The position numbers and the translations under genes were made by a program. The notes beneath the pieces were generated by a model. It saw only the letters and a program-made list of their open reading frames with translations. It searched no databases and was not told the DNA's origin. Below are positions 21,986 to 29,635 of a stretch of DNA of 54,183 nucleotides, in pieces. The stretch's first letter is position 1. Each line of letters opens with the position of its first letter. The DNA is from Actinomycetes bacterium (GTDB lineage Bacteria; Actinomycetota; Actinomycetes; Nanopelagicales; Nanopelagicaceae): positions 1-54,183 of the forward strand of contig JANYDL010000014.1 of assembly GCA_025363635.1 (NCBI GenBank), in the 5' to 3' direction.

Positions 21986-23680
21986 TTATAAACCGAGCAC
22001 GCTGACATTTATCAAGTGCTCACGAGCAAGTCGTTTAGCGCTCTTTGCTGTGGTTGCTCCGAGAGCAGCCCGTGCTGCATCGACCATCTCCTGGGTAGAA
22101 AGGGAGGTAATCGCAATTGCGACATCTTCCAAAGCCCCAACATTGCACGACAAACTTGTCACACCCAAACCAATCAGGACAGCGGCCAAGGCTGGATCTG
22201 ACGCTGCTTCCCCGCACACCCCCACAGGGCAGTTATTCTCCTTGCCTGCTTGCGCGATGAGATGGATTGCGCGTAGAAGTGCCGGTTGCCACGGATCATT
22301 AAAGTGAGCCAATGTGGCTGACTCTCTATCTGCAGCATGAAGATACTGTCCAAGATCGTTGGTGCCAATGGACACAAAATCGACCACCTTTGAAATCTCA
22401 CCTGCAAGCATCACCGCTGAAGGGACTTCGATCATGACACCGGCGGTCTTTAATCCATAACTCTTAGCAAGAGCAACAAAATTTTCAGCCTCTTCCGGAA
22501 GCGTGATCATCGGAGCCATCACCCATACATCAGCACCAGAAAGCACTTCTGCTTGCGCAATTGCTTCCAGTTGATCTCGAAGAAGCGCCTCGCTCATCGT
22601 CACGGTTCTATACCCACGAACTCCTAGCGCAGGATTTGGTTCGTGTTCAAAATTTATAAAGCTCATGGGTTTATCCGCACCGGCATCTAAAGTTCTAATT
22701 ACAACTTTTTTTCCGCTGAAAGGGGAAAACATCGCTGCATATATCTCGCACTGTTCTTTTGTCGTGGGTGGAGTCTGCCGATCTAGATAAAGTAGCTCCG
22801 TGCGGAGAAGGCCGATGCCATCTGCACCGGCCTTAACAGCATTTGCGACGTCGTCAACTCTTCCAACGTTCGCATTAATGGATAGGGCGACTCCGTCGGT
22901 AGTTGCATATGAACCTTCCAGACGAACTGCCTTTCGTTCACGTCGCAAAATGATCGCCGCCGTCACGGACTCCAATTCCTTGATGATTTCAACACTGGGA
23001 TCAAAAGTTGCAGCGCCCTCACGAGCATCTACTCCTACCTGCTTGCCCTTGTATTTAGCGGCAATAAGAAGGACTCCGCGGCAAGCGACAATCGCAGGGA
23101 TACCAAGGGTTCTGGCAATTATCGCTGTGTGGCTGGTGGGTCCACCTTCTTCGGTAATAATCGCCATAACCTGATCCGGGGTCAAGTCAATAGTGTCTGC
23201 GGGCGAAAGATCCCGCGCTATAAGTATAAAAGGCTCGTCCAGCCGCGGGATTTCCGGATAGTCAACTCCCGTGAGAATGCATGCAATTCGATCTCGAATG
23301 TTTGAAACATCGCTCGCTCTTTCTGCCAGGTAGCCGCCGGCTTCAACAAGCAATTGCGCGAAAACTTCGCTCGCTTCCCAAATCGCCAATGCCGCTGAAC
23401 TTCCCTTTTGAATTAATGATTCAGCCGTCGAAAGTAACGCGCTGTCTTGAGCAATGTCACTGGAGGCATACAAAATCTCTTGTGCCTCACCTGTTGCTCT
23501 TCCTGCTCGCTCTAAAAGTTGATCCGACACTCGTTTTGCAGCGTGACGAAGGTTTTCAATTTCGACTTCTTGATTCAACTCCGATGGGCTGGAACCTGGT
23601 TTTGTTATCGCGGTGGGCATGACGTAAAAAGAACCGACCGCAGCCCCAGTACTCGCAGATATTCCGTGAATTGTCTTCAC
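21986..23680 (-). CDS. ptsI: PTS enzyme I (phosphoenolpyruvate-protein phosphotransferase)
   Basis: 564 residues, full length. Transfers phosphate from PEP to HPr, releasing pyruvate. N-terminal GISASTGAAVGSFYV, phospho-His loop EEGGPTSHTAIIARTLGIPA, PEP-domain LLYLDRQTPPT region, RTLDAGADKPMSF, VGIGTNDLxQY-like SIGTNDLGQYLHAADR and the acid/base Cys in PVGVCGEAASDP are all present. It follows the E2 gene by 14 bases, so it belongs to the E1alpha-E1beta-E2 operon rather than sitting beside ptsH as usual. About 150 bases then separate it from the SorC regulator. Confidence 0.96.
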   Translation of the reverse strand: MKTIHGISASTGAAVGSFYVMPTAITKPGSSPSELNQEVEIENLRHAAKRVSDQLLERAGRATGEAQEILYASSDIAQDSALLSTAESLIQKGSSAALAIWEASEVFAQLLVEAGGYLAERASDVSNIRDRIACILTGVDYPEIPRLDEPFILIARDLSPADTIDLTPDQVMAIITEEGGPTSHTAIIARTLGIPAIVACRGVLLIAAKYKGKQVGVDAREGAATFDPSVEIIKELESVTAAIILRRERKAVRLEGSYATTDGVALSINANVGRVDDVANAVKAGADGIGLLRTELLYLDRQTPPTTKEQCEIYAAMFSPFSGKKVVIRTLDAGADKPMSFINFEHEPNPALGVRGYRTVTMSEALLRDQLEAIAQAEVLSGADVWVMAPMITLPEEAENFVALAKSYGLKTAGVMIEVPSAVMLAGEISKVVDFVSIGTNDLGQYLHAADRESATLAHFNDPWQPALLRAIHLIAQAGKENNCPVGVCGEAASDPALAAVLIGLGVTSLSCNVGALEDVAIAITSLSTQEMVDAARAALGATTAKSAKRLAREHLINVSVLGL

Positions 23681-26911: not shown

Positions 26912-27187
26912 ATGCAAGAGTTCCAGAGCACTGTTGCTTCACCGGTCGGTCTGCATGCTCGTCCAGCTTCTCTCTTCTCAAGGAGCGCAAAAGAGTCGGG
27001 ATGTAATGTTTTGTTAGCCAAAATCACCCATGGTGTTACATCTGAATTCGTCGATGGCACTTCAATCTTGCGAGTAATGACCCTAGGCGTGAAATTTGGT
27101 GATGAAATCATCGTGCGCGTTGAAGGAGAGAGTGAAGCGGCAACTGCCCGTCTCCTCCAAGGGCTCGTCGAAAGCGCTGATCACTGA
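26912..27187 (+). CDS. ptsH: PTS phosphocarrier protein HPr
   Basis: 91 residues. Phosphorylation site His15 in ASPVGLHARPASLF. The region of regulatory Ser46 reads DGTSILRVMTLGVKFGDEI, so a Ser is present (Ser51) but spacing differs slightly from Firmicutes HPr. It shuttles phosphate from EI to the EIIA of the glucitol-type system. GGAGAGG (26897-26903) precedes ATG. Divergent from the E1alpha-E1beta-E2-ptsI operon, so EI and HPr are made from opposite strands of one control region. Confidence 0.95.
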   Translation: MQEFQSTVASPVGLHARPASLFSRSAKESGCNVLLAKITHGVTSEFVDGTSILRVMTLGVKFGDEIIVRVEGESEAATARLLQGLVESADH

Positions 27188-27502
27188 AGTCAGTTCGGAG
27201 TTACGACATTTCAACAGAGTTGGCGGAACTTCAAAGCCTACGGTTTTTCAAATTCATGTATTTTTAAATGGACAGGTACGCTGCAGAATGAATTTAAAGT
27301 TGAGTTCAATAGATAACCTGGATAAATGAATACCTCTTTCAATACATAATGAATATCCGCAGACCTTATTGAACTCTTTTACTTTCATTTATATTTATTG
27401 AGGCTATCGTTTTGTTTGTAAGGAATTCTTGGCAACCAAGTAACACATATCTCCCTCAATCGCAGTGTTCGCTTTCAAAGAACTAATTCTTCGGTCAAAT
27501 CC
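27188..27502 (+). other. AT-rich 315-base gap upstream of the sortase gene
   Basis: No gene family recognised. It contains only very short frames. The open frame of the sortase extends back to 27422 without a start codon, and another frame around 27402-27485 encodes IVLFVRNSWQPSNTYLPQS-like sequence. This could be the remains of a lost N-terminal membrane anchor, but the match is weak. Confidence 0.35.
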
Positions 27503-27997
27503 ATGGTTGCACATAAAGTGGAGATGAAAGCCAGTGCTCGCGAAAGTGCCATCCCAGTGACTGCAATTCCGTACCCGCATCCAAGTGATTACCTTGGAAC
27601 TATTGCAATTCCGGCCCTCAAAAGCGTCAATCCCTTTTATGAAGGTACCGAGGAATATGAATTGAAACGCGGCGTGGGGCATTTCATTGGCAGTGTCCTG
27701 CATGGAGTTGTTGACAACTCCGTACTTGCTGGACATCGAGATTCAGTGTTTTCCAATTTAGGAAAATTGAAAATGGGCGATCTTATCTTCATCGACGACA
27801 TTACTGGGAAATTCACCTATGAGGTTGCAAAATTCAGAATCGTACTGGCCGACGACAGAACCGCCATTGTTCCAACAAAGACAGCGGTCTTAACATTGAG
27901 TACCTACTATCCATTTCACTTCTTTGGAAATGCTCCAAAGCGGTTTATCGTCAGTGCAAATCTAATCAATCCGATTGAGACCCTCAAGAAAGCCTGA
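27503..27997 (+). CDS. Class D/E-like sortase lacking the catalytic cysteine
   Basis: 164 residues. Sortase core: YLGTIAIPALKSVNPFYEGT, RGVGHFIGSVLHG, SVLAGHRDSVFSNLGKLKMG with the catalytic His78, and NAPKRFIVSANL with the conserved Arg147. The active-site TLxTCYPF strand reads TLSTYYPF, with Tyr135 (codon TAC, 27905-27907) in the Cys position; TGC to TAC is a single transition. There is also no N-terminal membrane anchor or signal peptide, normally present in sortases. So it is a dead or decaying sortase, or a repurposed fold. None of the secreted proteins in this window has an LPxTG sorting signal. No ribosome site stands out before the ATG. Confidence 0.85.
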   Translation: MVAHKVEMKASARESAIPVTAIPYPHPSDYLGTIAIPALKSVNPFYEGTEEYELKRGVGHFIGSVLHGVVDNSVLAGHRDSVFSNLGKLKMGDLIFIDDITGKFTYEVAKFRIVLADDRTAIVPTKTAVLTLSTYYPFHFFGNAPKRFIVSANLINPIETLKKA

Positions 27998-28036: not shown

Positions 28037-29635
28037 ATGATTTCCACACAGAGCCTTGAGTTACGCGCCGGGGCGCGACTCCTCGTCTCTGGGGTCACAG
28101 TACGCATCAATCATGGTGATCGCATTGGCTTTGTTGGGCGAAATGGTGCAGGAAAAAGCACCCTTGCCAAAGTGCTCGCTGGTGAAACTTTACCGGCCGG
28201 CGGCCAGGTACTGCGTAGCGGTGGTATTGGTTATCTACCTCAGGATCCACGCACCGGCGATGAAGAGGGCACAGTTGTTGAGAGAATTCTTTCTGTACGC
28301 GGATTAGATCTCATCGTGAACCGAATGCGTCAGGCGGAAGAAGCCATGGCTACGACAGAAGGTTCCGAGCTCGAGAACGTAATGAATAGATATAGTCGGG
28401 CAGAGAGCGAATTTACCGTTGCCGGTGGATATAGCGCGACAGCAGAAGCCGAGGCGATCGCCACGAGCCTTGGAATTCCAGAGCGACTCTTTGACGAACC
28501 CCTCTCTTCGCTCAGCGGCGGTCAACGCCGTCGAATTGAACTGGCACGAATACTTTTTAGTGGGGCGGAGACTCTTCTTCTGGACGAACCGACCAATCAC
28601 CTCGACGCCGATTCGGTTACTTGGTTGCGCGAGTATTTACTTAAGTACTCTGGTGGCCTTGTTGTGATTAGCCACGATGTGAATCTTATTGAAACTGTCG
28701 TAAATAAAGTCTTTTATCTAGACGCCAATAGAAATGTCATCGATGTCTACAACTTGGGATGGAAAAAATATCTTCTGCAACGTGAACAAGATGAGCATCG
28801 ACGAAAAATTGATCGCGCAAATGCGGAAAAGAAAGCAGCGATACTCGAAAAGCAGGCAGAGAAATTGCGAGCGAAAGCAACCAAAGCCAAGGCCGCACAG
28901 GGCATGTTTCGACGTGCAGAGAAACTTCTCTCAGACCTAGAAGAAGTGCGAAAGACCGACAGAGTCGCAAAATTGCGATTTCCTACGCCAGCGCCCTGTG
29001 GCAAGACGCCCTTGTCCGCTTCAGCCCTGAGTAAGTCCTACGGTTCACTTGAAGTTTTCACAGATGTCGATCTTGCGATCGATAAAGGCTCCAGAGTTGT
29101 CATCCTTGGATTAAATGGCGCAGGGAAAACGACCTTACTTCGGATGCTCGCGGGTGAATTAGAACCTGACACTGGTGAAGTCGTTGCGGGTCACGGATTA
29201 CGAATCGGTTATTACGCTCAAGAGCACGAATCACTTGATTACGAGCGCAGTGTGCTTGAAAACATGCAAAGTTCTTCTCCAAATATTCGCGAACCTGAAG
29301 CAAGGAATGTGTTGGGCTCATTCCTGTTCACCGGAGACGATGTTCATAAACCGGTGAAGGTGCTGAGCGGCGGAGAACGAACTCGACTTGCCCTAGCCGT
29401 ACTTGTTGTAAGCGCGGCAAATGTTCTGCTCTTGGATGAACCGACTAACAACTTAGACCCTGCATCTCGGGCAGAAATATTAGGGGCGCTAGGCGAGTAT
29501 CAAGGCTCAGTCATTTTGGTATCACATGATGAAGGAGCAGTTCGCGCTCTCAAACCAGACCGAGTGCTTTTGCTTCCAGATGGTGATGAAGACTTGTGGA
29601 ATGAAAATTATCTAGATCTGGTAGAAATTGACTAA
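28037..29635 (+). CDS. ABC-F family ATPase (ribosome-associated)
   Basis: 532 residues with two ATPase domains and no membrane segments. Domain 1: GRNGAGKSTLAKVL, SGGQRRRIELARILF, LLLDEPTNHLD. A charged linker with EKQAEKLRAKATKAKAAQGM (P-site-interaction-like helices, about 235-300). Domain 2: GLNGAGKTTLLRML, SGGERTRLALAVLV, LLLDEPTNNLD. ABC-F proteins act on ribosomes in translation control or antibiotic protection; the paralogue cannot be named safely. It starts 40 bases after the sortase gene and its stop overlaps the convergent MFS stop. Confidence 0.92.
   Translation: MISTQSLELRAGARLLVSGVTVRINHGDRIGFVGRNGAGKSTLAKVLAGETLPAGGQVLRSGGIGYLPQDPRTGDEEGTVVERILSVRGLDLIVNRMRQAEEAMATTEGSELENVMNRYSRAESEFTVAGGYSATAEAEAIATSLGIPERLFDEPLSSLSGGQRRRIELARILFSGAETLLLDEPTNHLDADSVTWLREYLLKYSGGLVVISHDVNLIETVVNKVFYLDANRNVIDVYNLGWKKYLLQREQDEHRRKIDRANAEKKAAILEKQAEKLRAKATKAKAAQGMFRRAEKLLSDLEEVRKTDRVAKLRFPTPAPCGKTPLSASALSKSYGSLEVFTDVDLAIDKGSRVVILGLNGAGKTTLLRMLAGELEPDTGEVVAGHGLRIGYYAQEHESLDYERSVLENMQSSSPNIREPEARNVLGSFLFTGDDVHKPVKVLSGGERTRLALAVLVVSAANVLLLDEPTNNLDPASRAEILGALGEYQGSVILVSHDEGAVRALKPDRVLLLPDGDEDLWNENYLDLVEID

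Follow-up and report, generated by a model that had tools for sequence, protein, structure and literature searches.

In the class D sortase SrtD of C. perfringens (4D70), His109, Cys171 and Arg178 are the catalytic residues (PMC4498605). Inactive sortase genes have been described as well: the second sortase of C. difficile 630 is a recognised pseudogene with a stop before the catalytic cysteine (PMC4155245). Sortase pseudogenes are thus already known, and the novelty of a further example is low. The open reading frame (ORF) described here occupies positions 27503–27997 of the window, by which we mean the whole stretch of 54,183 nucleotides that was analysed; this ORF and all other window features named below lie on the plus strand. 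It resembles the class D SrtD enzymes 2LN7 and 4D70 in its full-length sortase domain, its catalytic His and Arg positions and its TLxT-x-YPF context, but unlike them it lacks the catalytic cysteine, a membrane anchor and a detectable substrate in the genome. With the second sortase of C. difficile 630 it shares an apparent inactivation in one lineage and absence from relatives; there, a stop codon is the lesion, whereas here substrate and anchor are deleted and the nucleophile is affected by a missense change.

The window belongs to a metagenome-type assembly of an uncultured actinobacterium (1.85 Mb, 104 contigs, 98% complete), in which this ORF is the sole sortase found. The encoded domain of 164 amino acids matched the Pfam Sortase model PF04203 (2.5e-22, 79.4 bits with a cut-off of 26.6) over 124 of 125 model positions. 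Its best NCBIfam match was the SrtD model NF058671 (152.9 bits, above the cut-off of 140), and the score with the generic class D model NF033746 (145.3) was below the cut-off of 165. Alignment with the nearest solved sequence, 2LN7 (5e-26), placed His78 (27734–27736) and Arg147 (27941–27943) opposite the His and Arg of that enzyme and Tyr135 opposite the Cys of its TLTTC motif, in agreement with the initial annotation, which had read exactly these residues and a tyrosine in the TLxTC slot. The Tyr135 codon (27905–27907) is TAC in place of the TGY (Cys) codon of the other family sortases, and the whole protein contains no cysteine, so that none is present besides the missing catalytic one. Kyte-Doolittle averaging over 19 residues detected no transmembrane segment in the ORF, with a highest mean of 1.13 as compared to 1.6–2.8 for the N-termini of 27 other family sortases, and the open frame upstream (27422–27502) held neither an in-frame ATG, GTG or TTG nor a hydrophobic stretch; the earlier claim that the protein has no membrane anchor was thereby confirmed. 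The accompanying statement that all of the fold is kept proved slightly generous: the N-terminal anchor is gone and two further family-invariant residues are replaced (P67H and V121A). A single-sequence AlphaFold2 model reached a pLDDT of 31, a confidence too low for use. Judged from its sequence, the ORF descends from class D sortases but is probably not a functioning member of the class, since nucleophile and anchor, two defining features, were tested and are absent. For annotation this is a warning, as profile searches call the ORF a ‘class D sortase’ despite the missing requirements for activity.

In a search of 296 genomes of the order with the DNA pattern for TLxT[CY][YF]PF, 35 matches read Cys and a single sortase, that of the window, read Tyr. 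The sequence TLRTYYPF at G011:C109 lay outside any match to a sortase model and was set aside as a chance occurrence. Full sortase sequences could be read out for 27 of the 35 Cys matches, revealing 33 invariant positions, three of which are broken in the ORF: P67H (27701–27703; Pro in 27/27 other sortases), V121A (27863–27865; Val in 27/27) and C135Y. Most of the 27 sortases break no invariant site and the most divergent ones up to three; four intact family members break 2–3. The initial proposal that one transition explains the altered active site is incomplete: TAC is one base away from a Cys codon, but the larger event is a deletion of about 1.1 kb, and two more invariant positions are broken. 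In a codon model the branch leading to the ORF showed an omega of 0.04 and neutrality was rejected (p=5e-4), a value that averages over a constrained past with dS saturated, and most of this branch was therefore under constraint. According to simulations, about 0.03–0.05 neutral substitutions per site suffice for 2–3 hits in 33 sites, and with the same amount of drift roughly half to two thirds of the simulated frames still lack a stop, or fewer when small indels are counted. The strong past constraint together with the frame that is still open suggests that inactivation was recent.

Within the genus, 12 of 21 genomes contained a sortase match to the ORF protein and nine did not. Every other full-length sortase copy in these genomes carries TL[ST]TC and an N-terminal anchor. 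The gene order in G006 and G019 is HPr, substrate, sortase, ABC-F, and in contig G008:C79 it is substrate, sortase, ABC-F; the sortases of all three have the cysteine and an N-terminal transmembrane segment. In the window, a ptsH-like HPr gene (26912–27187) and a gene for an ABC-F type ATPase (28037–29635) flank the site on the left and right, respectively. The ORF thus occupies the orthologous position, sharing the HPr and ABC-F flanks and grouping with the sortases of that locus. The intact sortases of G006, G019, G008:C79 and G011 belong to the same clade (~56–69% identity) and, where the contig shows it, also precede the ABC-F gene; unlike the ORF, they possess the cysteine, the N-terminal transmembrane segment and an adjoining substrate with an LPxT[SG]SPW signal.

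The substrate gene of G006 (L023:6657–7631) encodes an ice-binding-like protein (PF11999, 1.7e-53). Substrates of the relatives end in a C-terminal GG[TK]LPxT[SG][ST]PW[YFN]N motif followed first by a hydrophobic stretch and then by a basic tail, and the two that were tested with TIGR01167 (NCBIfam LPXTG_anchor) scored above its cut-off. In intact relatives, ice-binding-like proteins with the LPxT[SG]SPW signal are probable sortase substrates; a literature search for such a pairing of ice-binding-like proteins and sortases returned nothing. Of the 11 other genomes with a sortase, 10 contained strong matches (best E of 1e-17 or lower) to a profile built from ten of these sorting signals (A1). 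The sortase of the exception, G010, is cut by a contig end, and its substrate neighbour may be unassembled. Genomes without sortase gave only chance-level scores with A1, and in the genome of the window A1 had no match and PF00746 and TIGR01167 yielded nothing above cut-off. The weak LPxTG-like matches inspected in this genome were rejected, as they had no C-terminal LPxT signal and those that could be placed were ordinary membrane helices; its PF11999 protein (on contig C7) has a C-terminal end without a sorting signal. Searching for LPxTG-like proteins, as the initial annotation had suggested, thus detected no sorting signal in the rest of the genome, in line with its claim that substrates are absent.

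The remains of the substrate gene can be traced directly upstream of the ORF. Positions 27448–27501 correspond to the leader that precedes the substrate gene in G006 (L023:6520–6572): two blocks of 15 and 11 bp, TATCTCCCTCAATCG and TCGGTCAAATC, stand in the same order in both and are almost equally spaced. These blocks co-occur in no other fetched locus, and the score of the leader alignment between window and G006 was reached by none of 5000 shuffles and by two of 5000 Markov resamplings. From 27505 on, four bases past the leader, the window is homologous to the G006 sortase, beginning where the membrane segment of the latter ends (L023:7714). Across this junction (27501–27505), 1,141 bp of G006 (L023:6573–7713) are absent, comprising the entire substrate gene and the 5' part of the sortase gene, and the substrate leader continues directly into the sortase near codon 25. 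The short repeat TTTCGGTC is found at both ends of the missing segment in G006, and the junction itself carries an ATG, which follows the old leader. The leader contains blocks common to the window and G006 (27448–27501 and L023:6454–6572) as well as possible hairpins; an Rfam search of leader and intergenic region returned no known RNA family.

In a tree of HPr and E1-alpha, G012 was sister to the genome of the window (bootstrap 100), followed by G006. The gap between HPr and ABC-F genes in G012 is 59 bp with a conserved ABC-F leader, that is, the site is empty, and no sortase was found anywhere in this genome. With an intact outgroup, one sister carrying a relic and the other an empty site, progressive loss of the module is the simplest reading. 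One locus is thus seen in three states, intact in G006, as a relic with a visible junction in the window and empty in G012, which makes it a clear snapshot of the loss of a sortase-substrate pair and a tidy case of gene loss, with no new system involved.

We consider it highly probable that the sortase gene died recently and that the ORF is a pseudogene with a reading frame not yet interrupted. The ancestor would have carried a two-gene module between the HPr and ABC-F genes, consisting of a secreted ice-binding-like (PF11999) protein with a terminal LPxT[SG]SPW and a dedicated membrane-anchored class D sortase that would cleave this signal by means of its cysteine and link the protein to the cell wall. 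A deletion of ~1.1 kb presumably removed the whole substrate gene together with the N-terminal signal-anchor of the sortase and fused the leader at about codon 25. The resulting stump would be cytoplasmic with nothing to anchor, so that selection would have been lifted, and P67H, V121A and C135Y could then accumulate, the last of them removing the nucleophile. We infer this order of events, as well as the relaxed selection and the absent activity. The open frame and the good conservation of the rest of the domain count against a relic, as do the four intact family members with 2–3 broken sites and the rejection of neutrality on the branch, although with dS saturated the omega estimate largely describes the period before inactivation. 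The initial suggestion of a recent inactivation in step with absent LPxTG substrates is nevertheless well supported, since substrate gene and anchor are missing across one and the same junction.

The other possibility raised in the initial annotation, a repurposed non-catalytic sortase, found no positive support. A cytoplasmic domain kept under selection, for example for peptide binding or regulation, and expressed from the old substrate promoter would fit the open frame, the retention of His78, Arg147 and most core positions, the ATG that follows the old leader at the junction, and the branch omega of about 0.04. We regard it as unlikely, because the Tyr form is unique to the window's sortase among the 296 genomes of the order, the site of the sister species is empty, the losses extend to invariant residues beyond the active site, and a low omega is expected of any recently dead gene after long constraint. 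It is very unlikely that one-step fusion by deletion to the leader of the former substrate created a soluble non-catalytic domain with a new binding role in the cytoplasm.

A metagenome-type assembly may contain misassemblies or wrong bases, and a Tyr codon one base from Cys in an assembly of 104 contigs might reflect such an error, as might the short N-terminus, so that the organism's sortase would be normal. This would require separate faults, namely a wrong base, a 1.1-kb loss with a clean junction and two more invariant substitutions; sorting signals are moreover absent from the 98%-complete genome and the module is also missing, independently, from the sister genome, which makes an error very improbable. 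Even if base 27906 were miscalled, the deletion and the absent substrates would stand. The retained catalytic His and Arg might finally point to an active sortase that uses another nucleophile or substrates with an unknown signal. Sortases, however, work as cysteine transpeptidases, and a Cys-to-Ala exchange in C. difficile SrtB abolished activity (PMC4155245); with no cysteine at all, no anchor and no matching substrates found in the genome, the ORF almost certainly does not encode such an enzyme. A dead sortase gene with an open frame is the reading we prefer.

Several observations concern the module in the genus at large. In the intact relatives, ice-binding-like (PF11999) proteins that carry LPxT[SG]SPW at the C-terminus stand beside class D sortases not only at L023:6657–7631 but also at L024, L031, L054 and related loci, and a second type of substrate, without PF11999, occurs in G005, G015, G017 and G018. 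The substrate gene of G019 (L022) looks shorter than elsewhere, as undetermined bases precede its readable part. In G013 (L119) and G007 (L121), a substrate gene occupies the HPr/ABC-F site without an adjoining sortase, which is encoded elsewhere; sortase and substrate are therefore separable. About half of the genomes of the genus had no close HPr homologue in a genus-wide search, possibly because phosphotransferase genes were lost repeatedly or because of contig gaps. In the window, the HPr gene and an enzyme I-like gene (21986–23680) are both present.
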